Translations under genes and position numbers: made by a program
Shown: piece by piece, positions 8,349-17,494 of the stretch
How the letters are laid out: each line of letters starts with the position of its first letter
Numbering within the stretch: the stretch's first letter is position 1
Notes under the pieces: generated by a model
Database searches by the model: none
Told to the model about the DNA's origin: nothing
The model's input: the letters and a program-made list of their open reading frames with translations, nothing else
Source: Luteolibacter luteus
Lineage (GTDB): Bacteria; Verrucomicrobiota; Verrucomicrobiia; Verrucomicrobiales; Akkermansiaceae
Direction of reading: 5' to 3'
DNA length: 64,000 nucleotides
Assembly: GCF_012913485.1 (NCBI RefSeq)
Contig: NZ_CP051774.1
Span: 1,240,001 to 1,304,000 of the forward strand

Positions 8349-9179
8349 TTAGCGGCTGACGAACTTCCTCATCAGACGTTCTTGGATCGGACGCAGCACG
8401 ATCGGGATCCAGCGTCCCAGGAACCAGAGGAGCTTGGCATTCGCCGGGAAAACCACCGTCCGCTTTCCCTTCGAAACGCCCGCGAGGTAATGGCGGGCAG
8501 CTTCGTCCGGGCTCATCATGGGAGCCGGCAAATCGTCGATCACTTCCTTCACGTTCGCCCCGACCACGCGATCCTGGCTGAAAATGTTGGAGTTCACGTA
8601 GCCGGGGCAGACCACGGTCACCTTCACTCCGTATGCCTTCGCTTCAGCGGCCAAGGAATGACTCATGCCGATCACCGCTTTCTTGGCAGTCGTGTAAGCG
8701 GCGGCGGTGGCGTAGCCGGTGACTCCGGCCACCGAGCCGGTACTGATGATGTGCCCCCTACCCTGCTTCACCATCACCGGATAGACCTGCATGACGCCGT
8801 TCAGCACGCCCATCAAATTGATATCGAGCAGCCATTTCCAGCGTTCGAAGGGCACCTTGTGGGCTTCACCCAGCAAGGTCACACCGGCATTGTTGAAGAG
8901 ATAGTCGAGCGTGCCGCTGGAGACAACGCACTCCTCCACCCAGCGGCCGTAGTCCGCGCGGTCGGTAACATTGAGCACCCGGGGCACCAAGGTGCCGGGT
9001 CCCCCGCTGACTTCAGCCGCCAACACATCGAGGCCCGCGGCATTCATGTCCGCGGCATGGACCTTTGCCCCGGAAGCGACCAGATGATGTGCAAGCGACC
9101 TGCCGATGCCCGATCCGGCTCCGGTGAGAAGCACGGTCTTGCCATCAAAGGCCTTGCGGATGGAAGGGGCGAGGCTCAT
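8349..9179 (-). CDS. Short-chain dehydrogenase/reductase
   Basis: A classical SDR of 276 residues. It has the NAD(P)-binding glycine motif TGAGSGIG (residues about 20-27), NNAGV, a catalytic Ser in STGSVAG and the YxxxK pair in YTTAKKAV. The start overlaps the stop of the upstream SDR gene as ATGA, so the two are translationally coupled. It is the last gene of a probable AraC-FadL-SDR-SDR operon. The substrate is unknown; lipid or fatty-acyl substrates are suggested only by the FadL-like neighbour. Confidence 0.9.
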   Translation of the reverse strand: MSLAPSIRKAFDGKTVLLTGAGSGIGRSLAHHLVASGAKVHAADMNAAGLDVLAAEVSGGPGTLVPRVLNVTDRADYGRWVEECVVSSGTLDYLFNNAGVTLLGEAHKVPFERWKWLLDINLMGVLNGVMQVYPVMVKQGRGHIISTGSVAGVTGYATAAAYTTAKKAVIGMSHSLAAEAKAYGVKVTVVCPGYVNSNIFSQDRVVGANVKEVIDDLPAPMMSPDEAARHYLAGVSKGKRTVVFPANAKLLWFLGRWIPIVLRPIQERLMRKFVSR

Positions 9180-9997
9180 GCCGAGAGTTCACGGAAACGT
9201 TTGACCATGCGGGCGTGGATGCCATCCACCAGACCGGGGAAGCGCGGCGCGACCCATGCGAGCAACTTCGCATAGCGCGGGAAGACGAGTTCATCCTTCC
9301 CTGCCTTTATCCCCTTGAGAATCGCCTCGGCCGCTTCAGAAGGCTCGATCATCTTGAAGCCCATCTCATCGATCTGCTTCAAGGTATTGTCGGGATTCGA
9401 ACGCCGGTAGATCGCGGAGCGATAGATGCCGGTGCGGACATAGCCAGGGCTGACCAGATGCACGGAAACTCCCTGTCCCGGCGCCTCGTGGCGCAGCGTG
9501 CGGAAGAGTCCTAACAGCCCCGCCTTCATGGTCGCATAAGGCACCGAGGTGGGATAGCCCGCGTAGCCCGCGAGCGAGGAAACCATGACAATCCGCCCGC
9601 GCCGGGCTTTCGCCATCACTTCATAGAAGGCCTGCGTCCACTGGACGTAGCTCAGAAGGTCTGTGCGATAAATCAGATCCCAGTCCTCGGGCTGGATGTC
9701 CTTCACCTCCCCGAAAATCGAAACCGCAGCAGCAAGGTAGAGTTCATCCAGACGGACTTCCTTCGTGAATTTCTCCAAGAAGCTGCCGCAACCCTCGATA
9801 TCGGAGAGATCAAGCGCGCGGACTTCCGCCTGGCCACCCGCGGCACGGATCTCATCCGCCAGAACATCCAGCTTCTCCGTGGAACGTGCGACGAGCCACA
9901 AGCGATGCCCCGGCACGCCAAGCTGGCGTGCCAGTTCCATTCCGATCCCCGAACTCGCGCCGGTGATCAGGATCTCCTTCACCGCGGGCGAGTTCAT
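9176..9997 (-). CDS. Short-chain dehydrogenase/reductase with altered NAG motif
   Basis: About 273 residues from the ATG at 9997, which shares its A with the stop of the upstream FadL-like gene (TAATG). The glycine motif TGASSGIG, a catalytic Ser (MVSSLAGY) and YATMK are present. The usual NNAG motif is replaced by YLAAAVSIF, a departure from the classical family. It is only moderately similar to the downstream SDR, so probably not a recent duplicate. Overlapping starts and stops show an operon FadL-SDR-SDR. Substrate unknown. Confidence 0.88.
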   Translation of the reverse strand: MNSPAVKEILITGASSGIGMELARQLGVPGHRLWLVARSTEKLDVLADEIRAAGGQAEVRALDLSDIEGCGSFLEKFTKEVRLDELYLAAAVSIFGEVKDIQPEDWDLIYRTDLLSYVQWTQAFYEVMAKARRGRIVMVSSLAGYAGYPTSVPYATMKAGLLGLFRTLRHEAPGQGVSVHLVSPGYVRTGIYRSAIYRRSNPDNTLKQIDEMGFKMIEPSEAAEAILKGIKAGKDELVFPRYAKLLAWVAPRFPGLVDGIHARMVKRFRELSA

Positions 9998-11181
9998 TAG
10001 AAGCGATAGTTGCAGGAAAGGCTTACCGAATGGTGACGCGACTCGTATTTGCCATTCGCAGTCTGGCCTGCGGCGGTCGGGAGCGCACCATTCACGTCGC
10101 GATTCGAGTAGCCGAACTGATAGGCGATGAACCAGCCCCAGTTGTCGCACTTGCGACCGAAGCCGGCATTGAACCAGTGGCGGTCCGCATCGGAGACCGC
10201 GGGGTTGAAGAAGGTGTCGGGCTGGGCGTTGCTATTGTAGTCGTAGCCCACCGCGAACTGGTAGCCGTTCTCCATGGTGTAGCTCACGCCCGCCTCATAG
10301 ATGAACATCGACTTCCAGTGGAAGGGTACGCCGGTGGCACCGCCGGGCAGCGCGGAAGAGCGCAGCCAAAGGGCATTCAGCGAATCCCAATCAAGCCATT
10401 CAACGTTTGCCTCAAGATTCCAACCCGGAGCGGGCTTGAAGGAGTAGCCGCCGGCCAAGCGCATCGGCGTTACGAAATCGATTTCGCCCGGCCCGGAGCC
10501 AAGGATGTTCGAGTAAACCTTTCCATCCAAGTCCAGCGAAGTGCTGCTGGTCGCGGTGAAGCCGAAGGAGTGTTGCTCGTGCGGTTTCCAAAGGACCGAC
10601 ACGGCACCGGCCACCGTGGTGCCATCGCCTTCGAAACGGAGGAAATCAAAAGGTGCCACGCCAAGGCCCTGCTCCAAGGTAAGATCGGCATAGTCCGCCG
10701 AACCGGAAACGCCAACCGAGAGGGTCTCGGTCAGGTCATAAGCCAGCGCGACCGAAGCGCGCGCGTAGGCGAGGCGAGCCTCCGTCACCACCGTGCGGAA
10801 GGGTGAACCGTGGCCCCACTCATTTCCCATCCCGAAGGGACTGGTCAGCGCAAAGCCCCAGGCAAGGTCATCATAGATCGGCTGGCCGAAATAGATGCTC
10901 GGTGCCGCCTGCCACTCGGACTTCGATTCGAACGAGCCCGCTCCGGTGGTCACCTTGTTCCCGAGATTGATCGAGTAAACGTTGATCTCGGCCTCCGCCT
11001 CTTCCAGCTGGGTCAGGCCAGCCGGGTTATAGTGCACCGCGGCGGCGGTATCCGCCGTGGCGATAAAGGCATTGCCCTTCGCGGTGGCGAAAGCGTCCTG
11101 ATTCGGAAGGTAGTAGCCCGCCGCGCCGGCCAAGCCGGGAAGAGCGAGGGTGATTGCGAAGGGGAGTGCGCGGCTTTTCAT
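9997..11181 (-). CDS. FadL-like outer-membrane long-chain hydrophobic-compound channel
   Basis: About 394 residues from the ATG at 11181, chosen because a clean signal peptide follows (MKSRALPFAITLALPGLAGA). The mature N-terminus GYYLPNQDAFATAKGNAF and the NPAGL motif are diagnostic of the FadL/TodX family, whose N-terminal hatch plugs a 14-strand barrel. The C-terminus ends in aromatic SLSCNYRF, a typical outer-membrane beta-signal. It would take up long-chain fatty acids or similar hydrophobic molecules. It is cotranscribed with two SDR genes and preceded by an AraC-type regulator. Confidence 0.85.
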   Translation of the reverse strand: MKSRALPFAITLALPGLAGAAGYYLPNQDAFATAKGNAFIATADTAAAVHYNPAGLTQLEEAEAEINVYSINLGNKVTTGAGSFESKSEWQAAPSIYFGQPIYDDLAWGFALTSPFGMGNEWGHGSPFRTVVTEARLAYARASVALAYDLTETLSVGVSGSADYADLTLEQGLGVAPFDFLRFEGDGTTVAGAVSVLWKPHEQHSFGFTATSSTSLDLDGKVYSNILGSGPGEIDFVTPMRLAGGYSFKPAPGWNLEANVEWLDWDSLNALWLRSSALPGGATGVPFHWKSMFIYEAGVSYTMENGYQFAVGYDYNSNAQPDTFFNPAVSDADRHWFNAGFGRKCDNWGWFIAYQFGYSNRDVNGALPTAAGQTANGKYESRHHSVSLSCNYRF

Positions 11182-11772: not shown

Positions 11773-12813
11773 TCAGAGAAGTCCCAAAGCTGACGAAATC
11801 AACAGATCGTCGTCGAAAAGCCACCGGGAAACATCCGATCCCGATGACATCTCCGCCGCTGCGCCGCCGGGCTTCACCTGGATGGTCAGGGTTTCCGAGC
11901 GCAAGCGGGTGACGGAAGCCCCGAGGTCATAGATGCCCATCAATGCGGCCAGCACCGGGATCGCCTCCTCGCCACCGCGGTCGCTCACGCCGAGCAGACC
12001 GGCGAGAAGCCGCGGGAAGGGATCATTCGACGACTTGAGGATGCTGCTGTCCCCATCCCTGCTGCTTTCGAGAGATTCGGCCGGCAGCGCGCTCACGAAG
12101 GCCGCGACCCGGTCTTCCAGCGTGGCTCCGGTGAAGCCAGCCTTGAGCAAGATCTCCAATTGGGACGCCAGCTGCTTCTGGTTCTCATGCACCTTCCGCC
12201 AGGAGTCGACACCAGCTTCGATGGCACCGGTCCGACCGCCGGCCGCAGCACCGAAGGCACCAAGCCGGACGAAGGAAGCGACCGCTTCCGCCGCGTGTTT
12301 CCCGGGCAGGCCGGAGACCACCGGCACGAGCGCAAAGGCGCCAAGTCTCGCGGAATAGATCACATTTCCCAGCGCCTGAAGCTTCGCTCCCATCAGGTGA
12401 CTCAGATCCCGCTTCACGATGAAGAACTCCATCGCCCGGCGTAGCGTGACCTCGAGCTCGCTGACTTCCCAAGGCTTCGTGATGTAACGGTAAATCCCTC
12501 CCTTGTTCACCGAACCGATGGCGGCATCCAGATCCGAATAGGCGGTGGAAAGGATCTTCACGACGTCCGGATACTGGTCGGCGATCTTCGAGAGGAAGCC
12601 CACGCCGGTCTCATTCGGCATGCGCTGGTCGGTCACGATGATACCGATCTCCGCCGCATGAGCCCGGAAGATGGAAAGCGCTTCTACACCATCCGAAGCC
12701 TCAAGAATACGGAAGGTCTCGCCATAGAGCCGGCGGAAGTACTTTCGCGTCTTCTCTTCGTCGTCCACGAAGAGCACGGCATAGCGCTGGTAGTCGTAGT
12801 TAAGGTCGCTCAT
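11773..12813 (-). CDS. Response regulator, PhcQ-position protein
   Basis: 346 residues. The N-terminal receiver domain (about 10-130) has the acidic pair D17-D18, phospho-acceptor D62 (VTDQRMP), a Thr/Ser in LSTAYSD and K113 (ITKPWE). The C-terminal 200 residues are mostly helical and have no DNA-binding HTH or GGDEF/EAL motif that I can see, so output is probably by protein interaction. The start overlaps the stop of the hybrid kinase gene (ATGA). In the Ralstonia phcBSRQ operon the last gene, phcQ, also encodes a receiver-domain protein without an obvious DNA-binding domain. The homology is an inference. Confidence 0.8.
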   Translation of the reverse strand: MSDLNYDYQRYAVLFVDDEEKTRKYFRRLYGETFRILEASDGVEALSIFRAHAAEIGIIVTDQRMPNETGVGFLSKIADQYPDVVKILSTAYSDLDAAIGSVNKGGIYRYITKPWEVSELEVTLRRAMEFFIVKRDLSHLMGAKLQALGNVIYSARLGAFALVPVVSGLPGKHAAEAVASFVRLGAFGAAAGGRTGAIEAGVDSWRKVHENQKQLASQLEILLKAGFTGATLEDRVAAFVSALPAESLESSRDGDSSILKSSNDPFPRLLAGLLGVSDRGGEEAIPVLAALMGIYDLGASVTRLRSETLTIQVKPGGAAAEMSSGSDVSRWLFDDDLLISSALGLL

Positions 12814-15533
12814 GGTAGGGAGTCGCTGGGGTCGGAGTCGATGGATTCCTCCTCTTGCTCCCAGTCGGCGTCAGGGTCGGGAGGAGGAAAGAAGATGGTG
12901 AAGCAAGTGAACTCGCCGGGGCGGGTGTCCACTTCGATGTGGGCGCGGTGGCGTCCGAGGATCTGGTGGGTGATGCTCAAGCCGAGCCCCATTCCCTTGC
13001 CAACGTCTTTCGAGGTGAAGAAAGGATCGTAAATCTTGCCGAGGATTTCCTTGGGGATGCCCGCGCCATTGTCCCAGATGGTGACTTCCCAGCCGCCGGC
13101 AGCCGGACGAAGTCCCACGTCGATGCGGCCGGGATCCCCTTCCTTCTCGGCAATCCTCTGTTGGATCGCATCGATCGCATTCTGGAAAAGGTTTACGAAG
13201 ACCTGCACCAGCTGGTTGCCATTGCCGGTGATCAGGGCCTTTTCGGGACCCTTCAGATTGAAGGCGACCTTGTCGCCGAGCTGGTGGCTCACAAGCCTGC
13301 GCGAGCGCTCGACCACGTCGGCGAGGTCCGCCTCGCCACCGACACGGTTGTCATCGCGGGTGAACTGGCGGAGATCCGCCACGATCTGGGCGACGCGTTC
13401 GACGCCCTCGCTGATGTCGCCGACGATCTCGTCGTAGTCCTCGTGATCGTCTGCCGGCAAGGAGCGGCGGAATGAGCGCAAGGCATGCAGGCCGGCGCGG
13501 GCGTAGTTGAGGGGATTGTTGATCTCGTGGATAATGCCCGCGCTCATCTGGCCGAGGCCGGACAGCTTCTCGTTGCGGACTAGCAGCACCTCGTTCTCCT
13601 TGAGCTTTTCCATTGCGGCACCCAGCTCGCGATTGAGATCGGCCAACTCGCGGCGGATGGCTGCCATGACAAGCTGGTTACGCAAGCGCAAGACCAACTC
13701 CGTGCCGGAGAAAGGTTTCGTCAGGAAATCGCTGGCACCCGCCTCAAGGGCATGGAGCTTGGTCTGCTCGTCCGCCCGGGCAGTAAGCATGATGACGGGC
13801 ATCTCACGGGTAGAGTGATGGCTGCGGATCGCTCGGCAGACCTCCACGCCATCCATTTCCGGCATCATGTGATCGATCAATGCCAGCACCGGCAGGTGCT
13901 GCTTTGCGAGAGCCAAGGCTTCGGCCCCATCGCGAGCTTCAATCACCTCGACATCCTCGAGCTGCATCACGAGGTAACGGCGCATGTCCGGCTCGTCATC
14001 CGCCACCAGCACCAGCGGTCGGCTGCCGGAACCCGGACGCCCGACGCCCCGGGCCACCACGGTCGTCTCCGCATAGTCGGCAGGACGTGCGACGGAAAGC
14101 GCTGCCCGGCGGTGCAGTTCCTCGATATGTTTTCCGGAAGCCTCGACTTCCTCTTCCTCCGCGACGGGGGCCAGCAAGGCCACTCCGGCCCTCTCCACGG
14201 GGAACTCTACTTTGAATTTGGTGCCCACGCCCACCACGCTCTCCGCATTGATGGTGCCGCCCATGGTATCCACGAGGCTCCGCACCAGAGCGAGACCGAT
14301 GCCTGCGCCCTGGAACTTGCGGGTCGAGGAGGAATCCACCTGCCAGAAGCGTTCGAAAATCCGGGGAAGAACATCGGTGGAGATACCCACCCCCGTATCG
14401 GAAACCGAAAGCGCCAGCATGTCTCCTGTGAGGACACCATCGACATCGATGCGGCCGCCGGAAGGCGTGAACTTGATCGCGTTGATCGTGAGGTTCAGCA
14501 GCATCTTCTCGATCTTGTCCCGATCGAGCATTAGCGGGCCGTCCACACCAGTGAGCTTCCAGTCGAGAGCGACGCCATCCTGATCAGCCAGATGCCGCAT
14601 CGAGTGCATCAGGCCGTCCAACATATCCTTCAGATTGGTCGGCTGGAGCTTGAGATCGGCGTGCCCGGTGTCGAAACGCACGAGATCGAGCAAGTCATCG
14701 ATCAGCTTCAGCAGGCGCAAGCCGTTGTGCTCGGTCATGGCCAGCATGTCGCGGACATCCTTCTGCGGGCTTGCCCTGAACTTGTCGGCGAGGCGCTCGG
14801 TCAGGCCGATCATCACGGTGAGCGGCGTGCGCAACTCGTGGCTGATGTTTGCGAAGAAGCGGGTCTTGGCCTCATCCAGCTCGCTCAGCTGCCGGTTCTG
14901 GACCTCAAGCTGCTCGCGTGCGTCTTCCACCTCCTTGCGCAGGGCGAACTCGCGGAAACGCAGGCGCTCGTAGAAATAGCTGCCTGCCAACACGAAGACG
15001 CTGGTGACGAAGAGGAAGTAGGCGTTGTTAAAAAACAGGCGGTGCTCGGCGTGCCCGGGCGCAAGCGCCACGCTGGCAAAATAGGTGCCGATGCACAGGA
15101 TGATCATCCCCACCGAGTTCCAGAAGGACCAGCGGAGCAGGAGGGACAAGCCGAGGAAAACAAGATTCAGGCCGGCGTAGTAGACGGAGTTCCCGCCACC
15201 GGTCTCCATGATCATCCAACAGATCCCGAGGGTCGGAAGCAGGGGGATGCCCTGGGCAATCCAGTTTCGCGATTTTTCGCGGCTCAGGTATGCCAGCGCC
15301 CAGAAGATCCCGCAGAGCAGGAAGGTCGTGATCGCCCGGATGAAAAGGAAGTGCCACGCCTTCTCCGGGAACACCATCCAGTCCAGAGTCGTCCCGGCGA
15401 GCATGAACAATGCCGCCAAGGCCGCCGCGCGGCGGGCGTTATCCACCGAAACGCCGTGCTCGTATCGTTCGAACGCGTGCTTCAGTTCGGCCTCATCAGC
15501 CGCGGGAAAGGAAACTGACGCGGCTTCAGCCAT
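12810..15533 (-). CDS. Membrane hybrid histidine kinase with a second kinase module (PhcS-PhcR-like fusion)
   Basis: 907 residues. Residues about 35-190 hold six predicted TM helices without a large periplasmic sensor. A first kinase module follows: HisKA with H232 (ISHELRTP) and an HATPase with N-box, DTGVGIS and GAGIGLAL. A receiver domain (about 507-620) has D512/D513, phospho-acceptor D554 (LIDHMMPEMDG) and K606 (TKPFS). A second kinase module has H669 (GIIHEINNPLNYAR) and an HATPase (NAIDAI, DNGAGIP, GMGLGLS). This looks like a 6-TM kinase joined to a receiver-kinase, the architectures of PhcS and PhcR respectively. The gene overlaps the methyltransferase upstream by 8 bp and the response regulator downstream by 4 bp. 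Confidence 0.9.
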   Translation of the reverse strand: MAEAASVSFPAADEAELKHAFERYEHGVSVDNARRAAALAALFMLAGTTLDWMVFPEKAWHFLFIRAITTFLLCGIFWALAYLSREKSRNWIAQGIPLLPTLGICWMIMETGGGNSVYYAGLNLVFLGLSLLLRWSFWNSVGMIILCIGTYFASVALAPGHAEHRLFFNNAYFLFVTSVFVLAGSYFYERLRFREFALRKEVEDAREQLEVQNRQLSELDEAKTRFFANISHELRTPLTVMIGLTERLADKFRASPQKDVRDMLAMTEHNGLRLLKLIDDLLDLVRFDTGHADLKLQPTNLKDMLDGLMHSMRHLADQDGVALDWKLTGVDGPLMLDRDKIEKMLLNLTINAIKFTPSGGRIDVDGVLTGDMLALSVSDTGVGISTDVLPRIFERFWQVDSSSTRKFQGAGIGLALVRSLVDTMGGTINAESVVGVGTKFKVEFPVERAGVALLAPVAEEEEVEASGKHIEELHRRAALSVARPADYAETTVVARGVGRPGSGSRPLVLVADDEPDMRRYLVMQLEDVEVIEARDGAEALALAKQHLPVLALIDHMMPEMDGVEVCRAIRSHHSTREMPVIMLTARADEQTKLHALEAGASDFLTKPFSGTELVLRLRNQLVMAAIRRELADLNRELGAAMEKLKENEVLLVRNEKLSGLGQMSAGIIHEINNPLNYARAGLHALRSFRRSLPADDHEDYDEIVGDISEGVERVAQIVADLRQFTRDDNRVGGEADLADVVERSRRLVSHQLGDKVAFNLKGPEKALITGNGNQLVQVFVNLFQNAIDAIQQRIAEKEGDPGRIDVGLRPAAGGWEVTIWDNGAGIPKEILGKIYDPFFTSKDVGKGMGLGLSITHQILGRHRAHIEVDTRPGEFTCFTIFFPPPDPDADWEQEEESIDSDPSDSLP

Positions 15534-17043
15534 TGGCCATTTCGATTTCCAGGAAGAGGTTCACCCCGGTGGAGTCCGCCTTGACGTCCACCCGCTTCAC
15601 GGGCGCGCCGACGGGCACGAGATCCAACATCTCCTCCTTGCCGCGGTAAATCAGGTTCCACTCCATCAGATACTCCATCCAGGCCTTGCGCGGATTGCTA
15701 TCGGCCACGTTCGTCACCACCACCAATCCGCCCGGCTTGGCGATCGAGCAGAAGAATTCCACCAGCCGCTTGCCCACCCGCTGCGAGAGATAGTCGAAAA
15801 GACCCGCGCAATAGACGACGTCGTAGTTACCCAGTTCCGGATCGCCACCCGGCTGCACCGCCGCCTTCAGGATCTGGTGGACGGACCGCGGGATGAATCT
15901 CATCTGGGTATTCCGGGCCATGCCCATGCGTGCCTTGTCCAAACGCTCGCGGGTGTATTCCAAGGTCTCCGGATTGAAGTCCAGAAGGTCGAATTCCATC
16001 AGGTCGCTGGAGTCGTGATCCTTCAGGAAACGGAGTACTTCCTCTGCGGGGCCGCAACCGAGGTTGAAAGCCCGCGCCCGGCCGCGACCGAAGCGGCGGC
16101 TCGACTCGCGGTCGAGCATGTCCACCAGATAGTCGATACGGTTCCGGTGAGCCACCACGGGCTCGGTGTTGAGCATTGCATAGTTGAGAAGCTTCGCGAA
16201 CGAGGATGCACCTTCGTACGGATCTCTCAACATCATGTTTACCATTTCGTAGTCACCGGCATATCCCAGCGGCTTCGTGTAGGTGCGGTAAAGGAACGGC
16301 GAACAGAGGACGATGGGATGCAACTCCCGCCGGATATAGGATTTGTGAGAGGGCATTTCCTCCTCCGAAATCTCGCCGGCCACATCCTCGAAGCTCTCCA
16401 TCGCCGGGATCACTTCCTCGATGACCTTCTTCTGGATGTTAGAAAAGATCTCACGCTCCAGGTCGTCCCGACGGCGGGTAGCCGTCGAGCGGATGCCCAC
16501 ATCGATGCCGCCCATCCAGTGCTGCACGCCGGTAAGGGTGCTGGACATGTCCGCCACGGAAATCTTGAAGGCGTCCTGAACCTTGTTAGCCGCCTTCCAG
16601 TCCGACATGAACCCGGCGAACTGGCTTCCCAGATCCGCCTCGCCGGTGACGCCCGAAAGAAAGTCCACCTCCTGCCAGCCGTCTTCCAGGCTCGCCTCGC
16701 AGACCAAGACCAAGCCCGTGTTGAGCAGATTGCTCACCACCGCTTTGCCGCGGTAGATCAGGCGCTTGTTTGCGAGGATCCGGAAATCCGAGAGCACCTC
16801 GGAAAGCTGGAGGATGCTATAAGGATTGTAGACCTCGAAAACGACGGAGTATCGGGTCAACCGGAGCAGGTTTGCCTGAACCTCCATTCCCTGGCTGTTC
16901 CGGCACTTGATGACGCTTTGCGACTGGTCGGGGAGAATCTCCATCAGCAATAGTTTTTCTTGGAGCGCACGACACCCGAAATCGGACATACGGGCAAGCC
17001 AATGTCGCAAACCTGCAAATCTTGCAGGGTCATAATCGGACAC
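15526..17043 (-). CDS. SAM-dependent methyltransferase with N-terminal PilZ-like region (PhcB-like)
   Basis: 505 residues. Residues about 35-130 form a beta-rich PilZ-like region (RLTRYSVVFEVYNPYS, RGKAVVSNLLNTGLVL). A helical linker follows. The C-terminal class I methyltransferase has motif I AFNLGCGPAEEV (about 325-335), an acidic strand end DLLDFNPETLEYTR and YDVVYCAGLFDYLS. The conserved KPLGYAGDYEMVNMM block precedes the Rossmann fold. Proteins with this block are commonly named 3-hydroxypalmitate methyl ester biosynthesis proteins after Ralstonia PhcB. It overlaps the hybrid kinase gene by 8 bp. The PhcB assignment is from motif memory plus operon context; the actual methyl acceptor is unproven. 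Confidence 0.75.
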   Translation of the reverse strand: MSDYDPARFAGLRHWLARMSDFGCRALQEKLLLMEILPDQSQSVIKCRNSQGMEVQANLLRLTRYSVVFEVYNPYSILQLSEVLSDFRILANKRLIYRGKAVVSNLLNTGLVLVCEASLEDGWQEVDFLSGVTGEADLGSQFAGFMSDWKAANKVQDAFKISVADMSSTLTGVQHWMGGIDVGIRSTATRRRDDLEREIFSNIQKKVIEEVIPAMESFEDVAGEISEEEMPSHKSYIRRELHPIVLCSPFLYRTYTKPLGYAGDYEMVNMMLRDPYEGASSFAKLLNYAMLNTEPVVAHRNRIDYLVDMLDRESSRRFGRGRARAFNLGCGPAEEVLRFLKDHDSSDLMEFDLLDFNPETLEYTRERLDKARMGMARNTQMRFIPRSVHQILKAAVQPGGDPELGNYDVVYCAGLFDYLSQRVGKRLVEFFCSIAKPGGLVVVTNVADSNPRKAWMEYLMEWNLIYRGKEEMLDLVPVGAPVKRVDVKADSTGVNLFLEIEMANG

Positions 17044-17494
17044 TAAAAAAATCCATCATGACCTGCCGATAGACATCGCGCTTGAATTCAGGGAGCCACT
17101 CAAGGTCGAACTCTTCCGGCATAATCCAGCGATAGGCACCGAATTCGCGCGGCCGCTGGTTCACGTTTACCTCCGGCGCGTCATCCTTCAGCAGGCAATG
17201 GTAGTAGGTCTGCTCCTGGCCATGGCAGCCGTGCTTGCGCATCTTCTTCACCCGCACATCTTCCGGATAGAGATAGCGGTACCCCGCCCGACACCCCAAC
17301 ACCTCATAGTGCTGCGGGAGCAGGCCCACTTCTTCCCTCACCTCCCGGAAAAGAGCCTGTTCCAGACTCTCCCCGTCATCCACTCCGCCTTGGGGAAATT
17401 GCCATGCACCGGGAATGGTCCAGCGCTCGCAGATGAGCAATTGCCCCTGCGGCTTGACCATGACGGCAGCGACATTCGGCCGGAAACGAACCAC
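17030..17494 (-). CDS. rppH: Nudix hydrolase, RppH-like (RNA 5'-pyrophosphohydrolase)
   Basis: 154 residues, close to the usual size of RppH. The N-terminus FRPNVAAVMVKPQGQLLICER and W.FPQGG are typical of the RppH/Ap4A pyrophosphohydrolase group. The complete Nudix box is GGVDDGESLEQALFREVREEVGL, quoted here from its 23-residue span at about 35-57 as G(x5)E(x7)REVxEEVGL. It would remove pyrophosphate from 5' triphosphate RNA to start mRNA decay, or cleave dinucleoside polyphosphates. Its stop overlaps the methyltransferase start region by 14 bp, so it may be the first gene of the signalling operon. Confidence 0.88.
   Translation of the reverse strand: MVRFRPNVAAVMVKPQGQLLICERWTIPGAWQFPQGGVDDGESLEQALFREVREEVGLLPQHYEVLGCRAGYRYLYPEDVRVKKMRKHGCHGQEQTYYHCLLKDDAPEVNVNQRPREFGAYRWIMPEEFDLEWLPEFKRDVYRQVMMDFFSVRL

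Follow-up and report, generated by a model that had tools for sequence, protein, structure and literature searches.

What does the three-gene operon at positions 11,773 to 17,043 of the window (the whole 64,000-nucleotide stretch of the Luteolibacter luteus contig NZ_CP051774.1, phylum Verrucomicrobiota, that was analysed) encode, and how is the 907-residue sensor kinase at its centre to be read? We propose that the locus is a signalling operon of the Phc type, related to the phcBSRQ quorum-sensing system of Ralstonia and Cupriavidus and working as set out in the model below, and we give this reading a probability of roughly 0.66. An initial annotation, made from the sequence alone, had described a phcB-like methyltransferase gene, a gene fusing phcS to phcR and a phcQ-like receiver gene outside the known hosts. 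The three open reading frames (ORFs) are found on the minus strand where it had placed them, with the kinase gene overlapping the methyltransferase gene by 8 nt and the receiver gene by 4 nt, and profile matches and trees agree that homologues of phcB, phcS and phcQ are present in this genome. The genome also carries two exact copies of the target of the EUB338-III probe, as would suit a verrucomicrobium.

Homology of the operon with phcBSRQ

As references we used the best 80 of at least 576 relatives of a Paraburkholderia query in genome contigs, all Betaproteobacteria by title and none from Ralstonia solanacearum; loci and genomes are cited below by L and G numbers. B, S and Q are present at all 80 loci (at a few, with a gene in two pieces), R at 59, a short receiver instead at 17 and neither at 4, and the order is B-S-R-Q in 59/80 and B-S-Q with or without the short receiver in 21/80. 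Profiles were built from 26 of these loci (21 for R). The methyltransferase is single-copy in all 14 betaproteobacterial genomes searched and, because Cupriavidus is reported to carry phcBSRQ (PMC2842291, PMC2864759), we take this single copy as phcB.

Searched with the PhcB profile (26 betaproteobacterial proteins), the window methyltransferase gives a full-length match of 434.7 bits over positions 7-461 of 463, three outgroup methyltransferases reach 40-83 bits, and of 20 shuffles of the window protein not one is listed. It has one match in its own genome (6.41 Mb in one contig; E 2.9e-204), and the methyltransferase tree joins it with PhcB and keeps the outgroup separate, so that it does not fall in an unrelated clade. 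A generic methyltransferase that happens to stand beside a generic hybrid kinase is ruled out by this gap in score and by the sensor profile described below, which is unique in the genome. The ORF itself stands as annotated, with the exception of its start: a start at GTG 17043, giving 505 residues, probably lies too far upstream, in-frame stops occurring in L026 and L027 inside the 33 codons that precede the ATG equivalent to 16944. We therefore prefer ATG 16944, as a probable rather than a certain start, since tblastn similarity in L028 extends further upstream than that ATG. A comparison with solved structures gave no convincing match for the PhcB family, and none of 57 pattern matches to PhcB relatives in viral contigs was confirmed; our impression is that the N-terminus of PhcB may be PilZ-like and the C-terminus of PhcQ may be a decayed kinase.

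Some relatives of the methyltransferase differ in form. In L044 (2089-4146) a PhcB-type methyltransferase of 685 aa begins with a fused receiver domain, as though the making of the signal were itself under phospho-control; a second relative of the methyltransferase, shorter and about 30% identical in its C-terminal half, occurs in L023, L024 and L025, three genomes from a single genus; and the frame holding the PhcB relative of L149 (4784-8203) comprises 1139 residues, extending far upstream of the match.

In the 907-residue protein Pfam finds MASE8 (31.4 bits, cut-off 26.2) on the sensor with its six transmembrane (TM) segments, two HisKA/HATPase histidine kinases, here HK1 and HK2, and one receiver between them, and the catalytic motifs are intact in HK1, HK2 and the internal receiver, whose predicted phosphorylation sites are H232, H669 and D554, respectively. 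The PhcS sensor profile matches one place in the genome (E up to 10) and, among 286 ORFs of 21 loci, exactly the 20 receptors of the operons counted below; D51, R66, M107, S116 and Y151 are identical in 28 of 28 sensor rows (8 betaproteobacterial, 20 from the window's phylum). Against the PhcS kinase profile, HK2 scores 140 bits and HK1 47, and HK2 is ahead in 18/18 long receptors. The third protein, for which Pfam gives a receiver alone, as expected of a receiver protein without a DNA-binding domain, scores 139.5 bits with the PhcQ profile (positions 8-180 of 330, the remainder not being covered by the profile) and 116.8 bits with the PhcR profile, in its receiver part only; its phosphoacceptor by alignment is D62. 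Since the PhcS kinase profile favours HK2 and the third protein favours PhcQ, the block between sensor and HK2 is better explained as an inserted kinase-receiver pair than as the product of an S-R fusion, and by its domain mapping the receptor is a PhcS with an extra kinase and receiver placed between sensor and output kinase. The histidine that is autophosphorylated and essential in PhcS is reported to be H230 (PMC11960443); betaproteobacterial S proteins, through which the alignment was made in place of a Ralstonia sequence, have their H-box histidine at about this position, aligned with the histidine of HK2 (HEINNP), and H230 would thus correspond to the HK2 histidine. In the window receptor HK1 and the receiver intervene between the sensor and the PhcS-type kinase; in L043, from the same phylum, these two are joined directly.

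The same arrangement of methyltransferase, kinase and receiver holds across the phylum. Of 387 genomes searched for the methyltransferase 22 were positive, the window's own included; G015, with a weak partial match, and G234, whose methyltransferase lacks an adjoining kinase, were not counted as operons. The triplet or a close variant is thus found in 20/387 genomes, the window's included, which is far beyond chance. Eighteen of the 20 receptors have the order sensor-HK1-receiver-HK2, so the long receptor is not a peculiarity of this genome; one receptor is divided between HK1 and receiver (L035, 485 + 395 aa) and one is a short sensor-HK2 protein (L043). All 18 long receptors, and the split L035 too, retain the motifs of HK1, receiver and HK2, although in L035 the first receiver motif fell outside the ORF used, and the HK1 H-box of L034, L039, L040 and L044 carries T for S. 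A PhcQ-like receiver gene follows the receptor in 18/20 operons (exceptions L035 and L037), and an AraC-type gene lies directly downstream of the receiver gene in 6/20 (the window and L026-L030).

Three consecutive receiver proteins follow the receptor in L034 (13740-17321), L039 (13204-16697) and L040 (12878-16399), the second and third of L039 having weak kinase-like C-terminal matches; such triplets may show how PhcR and PhcQ arose.

Proposed circuit and the nature of its signal

We propose the following model for the operon. The PhcB-like enzyme would methylate an acyl acid, which may be a 3-hydroxy acid, to give a diffusible methyl ester, which the six-TM domain of the long receptor would sense in the membrane, making the response dependent on cell density. 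HK1 and the internal receiver would act as an additional phospho-switch that sets the activity of HK2, and HK2 would in turn phosphorylate the PhcQ-like protein at D62. The phosphorylated protein may then control expression by way of a partner that binds DNA. This may be the AraC-type protein encoded next door, standing in for PhcA; a partner-binding role is made plausible by the reported binding of PhcA by PhcQ in Ralstonia (PMC13320629). Finally, passage of the lipid signal through the outer membrane would fall to FadL, and the two short-chain dehydrogenase/reductase (SDR) enzymes encoded beyond it would set the oxidation state of the acyl chain.

The neighbouring genes offer clues to the chemistry, and the link to fatty acids that the initial annotation sought in related operons is met with in part of them. 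A type I polyketide synthase (PKS) gene lies directly upstream of the methyltransferase gene in 6/20 operons. In L034, L036, L038, L039 and L040 this is a PKS with the Pfam domain order KS-AT-DH-ER-KR-ACP, which ends 17-60 nt short of the methyltransferase ORF; in L037 an FAAL-ACP-KS-AT-cMT-KR-ACP protein overlaps that ORF by 29 nt and, having neither DH nor ER, could yield a 3-hydroxyacyl chain. Motif patterns find no ER motif in any of the six and no DH in L034 and L036, where Pfam matches both DH and ER. FadL is encoded near 7/20 operons within the 8.5-20 kb fetched (the window, L026, L027, L029, L030, L034 and L039) and in four of these genomes the nearby copy is the only one; the window genome has three, for which the chance of finding one within 10 kb either side is about 1%, related genomes not being independent. 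The set fadL-SDR-SDR stands beside the operon in L026 and L030 as well. Both PKS and FadL as neighbours fit a fatty-acid-like ester.

A number of observations weigh against a Phc-type circuit of this kind. The window methyltransferase is 37-40% identical to 15 PhcB proteins, a distance at which the substrate may differ, and Cupriavidus metallidurans has the genes, yet 3-hydroxypalmitic acid methyl ester (3-OH PAME) could not be isolated from it according to PMC2864759. The 3-hydroxyacyl clue from L037 is weakened by a His at the expected tyrosine of the KR and by an AT motif that reads GQSIG, a 3-oxo product or a dead domain being just as possible, and the window's own operon has no PKS. Neither a PKS nor FadL was found by tblastn (E 1e-8) beside 84 Pseudomonadota loci (81 betaproteobacterial and 3 others); 13/20 operons have no FadL in the fetched stretch, four of the 20 genomes (G251, G190, G286, G336) have none anywhere, and the SDR pair accompanies just 3/20. 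MASE8 is not listed for two betaproteobacterial PhcS proteins scanned with Pfam. Finally, there is no separate PhcR gene at the window operon, whose internal receiver reaches just 33.5 bits with the PhcR profile; R is also missing from 21/80 betaproteobacterial loci.

Some of these points suit a homologous circuit with another chemistry, in which the methyltransferase acts on a polyketide or other carboxylic acid, so that the signal would be something other than a 3-hydroxy fatty acid methyl ester. A reducing PKS directly upstream in five operons and a different one in a sixth, the distance from PhcB, and the lack of such a PKS near the 84 Pseudomonadota loci would all be accommodated, but the window's lineage has no PKS beside its operon and the sensor keeps its invariant residues, and we consider this alternative unlikely, though worth keeping in view. 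It is improbable that the operon serves no cell-cell signalling at all and is a self-contained sensor of lipid or membrane state whose methyltransferase modifies an internal lipid or protein: FadL and SDR neighbours would also suit the uptake and use of fatty acids, but the full-length homology and the gene order are held in common with a known quorum-sensing operon, and the synthase and receptor genes overlap. The fusion of PhcS, as the N-terminal half, with PhcR, as the C-terminal receiver-kinase, as initially annotated, is very improbable, for although the domain string fits on paper, L035 is split just between HK1 and receiver, and PhcR kinases fall on the HK1 side of the kinase tree (93/92, on a very long branch), leaving room for a remote link between PhcR and the block, the PhcS kinase profile prefers HK2, the receiver-HK2 part scores 63.9 bits with the PhcR profile, under the third protein, and the tree puts betaproteobacterial PhcS among the HK2 rows with the PhcR kinases elsewhere.

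The Phc-type circuit that we favour shares with PhcBSRQ of Ralstonia and Cupriavidus, whose signals are 3-OH PAME and 3-hydroxymyristic acid methyl ester (3-OH MAME), the homologous B, S-sensor, S-kinase and Q, in the same order and in overlapping genes. It differs in the extra kinase and receiver within S, the lack of a separate R and the divergence of B. Furthermore, it has an AraC-type neighbour, whereas the output regulator of Phc is the LysR-type PhcA (which was not sought in the window genome), and in the window's phylum FadL-SDR-SDR or PKS genes stand nearby. The B-S-receiver-Q variant of Paraburkholderia and its kin (L046-L064) likewise lacks a full PhcR, a short receiver being present in L046 and in 17 of the 18 loci L047-L064; unlike in the window, its S is short and without the inserted block. 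The Lqs and Cqs systems (LqsA-LqsS-LqsR; CqsA-CqsS) resemble the window operon in using six-TM kinases for small lipid-like signals, but their synthase is a pyridoxal phosphate-dependent enzyme and not a methyltransferase. Lqs and Phc are treated as distinct in genes and signal in PMC10653808, and the Phc signal is described as a volatile lipid in PMC2842291. The former contains the one survey of its distribution that we found, made within Proteobacteria, and gives phc as restricted to Betaproteobacteria; in the open-licence papers that we searched we met with no account of a verrucomicrobial Phc system, the long receptor or a connection with a PKS. A homologous circuit in another phylum provides a concrete candidate for an autoinducer system there, which can be studied away from plant pathogens; it also brings to light a type of receptor into which a second kinase-receiver pair is built, and the operons linked to a PKS offer a handle on the chemistry of the signal.

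History of the operon

The methyltransferase tree was rooted on the two shorter relatives L023 and L024; it takes L029 in place of G215 and L044 without its receiver, and omits L022. Its 17 Pseudomonadota rows, 14 betaproteobacterial and L149-L151, are counted together. These 17 form one clade (100/100) inside the rows of the window's phylum and beside the lineage of L034, L036, L038, L039 and L040 (99/97). For this protein by itself, however, a tree that keeps every row of the window's phylum in one group is not rejected either (approximately unbiased (AU) test, p 0.174). The kinase tree, with 9 of 26 PhcS, 7 of 21 PhcR and 15 of 19 HK1 rows (those of L034, L039, L040 and L044 left out), nests betaproteobacterial PhcS among the HK2 rows (99/95 with L036 and L038) and gathers the HK1 rows in one group with modest support (72/99); the position of the PhcR kinases noted above carries a long-branch warning. 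In the concatenated tree (35 rows, 913 columns), in which L043 and L044 are both long rows of unsure joint position, Pseudomonadota join the L034/L036/L038/L039/L040 lineage (100/99), and the short receptors of Pseudomonadota and L043 are rejected as one clade by 67 log units (AU p 2.9e-13). As the short receptors are not one clade, the inserted block, if gained once, has been lost at least once, and on that premise the loss would have occurred either in Pseudomonadota or in L043, the root deciding which.

A recent transfer from Betaproteobacteria to the window's lineage is not supported: the Pseudomonadota rows make up a single clade (100/100), and the window sequence is placed with its own family. 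An origin in the window's phylum is not proven either, since the methyltransferase tree that keeps this phylum together is not rejected and the references, the best 80 listed, are all Betaproteobacteria. We put forward, as a tentative scenario only, that Phc arose outside Betaproteobacteria from an ancestor with the long receptor, some lineages having a PKS in the operon that makes the acyl chain for the PhcB enzyme to convert to a methyl ester, and that the Ralstonia/Cupriavidus form is a stripped-down transfer without block and PKS, running on ordinary fatty acid synthesis. On this comparison the short PhcS and the variable PhcR may each be peculiar to certain lineages, a view that agrees with the phenotype of a Ralstonia phcR deletion, described as largely unchanged in PMC8578825.

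In Pseudomonadota 7/398 genomes carry the methyltransferase (E up to 1e-25), with 54-69% identity to the query from Paraburkholderia graminis, and its divergence there is shallower than in the window's phylum, in which the most distant pairs share about 30% identity. A B-S-receiver-Q cluster (L046, 14986-19361) is carried by a plasmid of P. graminis that is typed as conjugative. About 1 kb away lies a set of genes with polysaccharide genes of the pelD and pelF types among them; the plasmid is a possible vehicle for transfer and the polysaccharide genes are a possible target.

Gene layout of the locus

The genes are listed in Table 1 in the order of their transcription from the minus strand, the start of fadL being set at the ATG that precedes a signal-like sequence, as in L026. 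With the methyltransferase starting at 16944, 85 nt separate it from the NUDIX gene, hence there is no overlap. The receiver and AraC-type genes are 83 nt apart and the AraC-type gene and fadL 115 nt, fadL and SDR 1 overlap by about 1 nt, and SDR 1 and SDR 2 by 4 nt. A scan of the locus for promoters and terminators did no better than on shuffles.

Table 1. Genes of the locus (nucleotide positions in the window) and domains of the receptor (approximate residues).
Feature	Position	Strand	Basis or remark
NUDIX hydrolase gene, RppH-like	17030-17494	-	directly upstream of methyltransferase gene
PhcB-type S-adenosylmethionine (SAM)-dependent methyltransferase, probable signal synthase	15526-16944	-	472 aa from ATG 16944; PhcB profile
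PhcS-type receptor, 907 aa	12810-15533	-	PhcS sensor and kinase profiles, motifs
Receptor: six-TM sensor	about residues 1-215		PhcS sensor profile 102.7 bits
Receptor: HK1, inserted kinase	about residues 216-450		PhcS kinase profile 47 bits
Receptor: inserted receiver	about residues 501-630		PhcR profile 33.5 bits, PhcQ 19.8
Receptor: HK2, PhcS-type output kinase	about residues 641-890		PhcS kinase profile 140 bits
PhcQ-like protein, 346 aa	11773-12813	-	receiver; C-terminal region without Pfam match; PhcQ profile
Stand-alone AraC-type DNA-binding protein, 130 aa	11297-11689	-	HTH_18 (Pfam)
FadL/TodX outer-membrane transporter of hydrophobic compounds	9997-11181	-	PF03349, 123.7 bits
SDR oxidoreductase 1, FabG-like	9176-9997	-	PF00106; start at ATG of MNSPAV sequence
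SDR oxidoreductase 2	8349-9179	-	PF00106

Among the fetched loci, a NUDIX gene stands upstream of the methyltransferase gene only in the window, L026 and L027.

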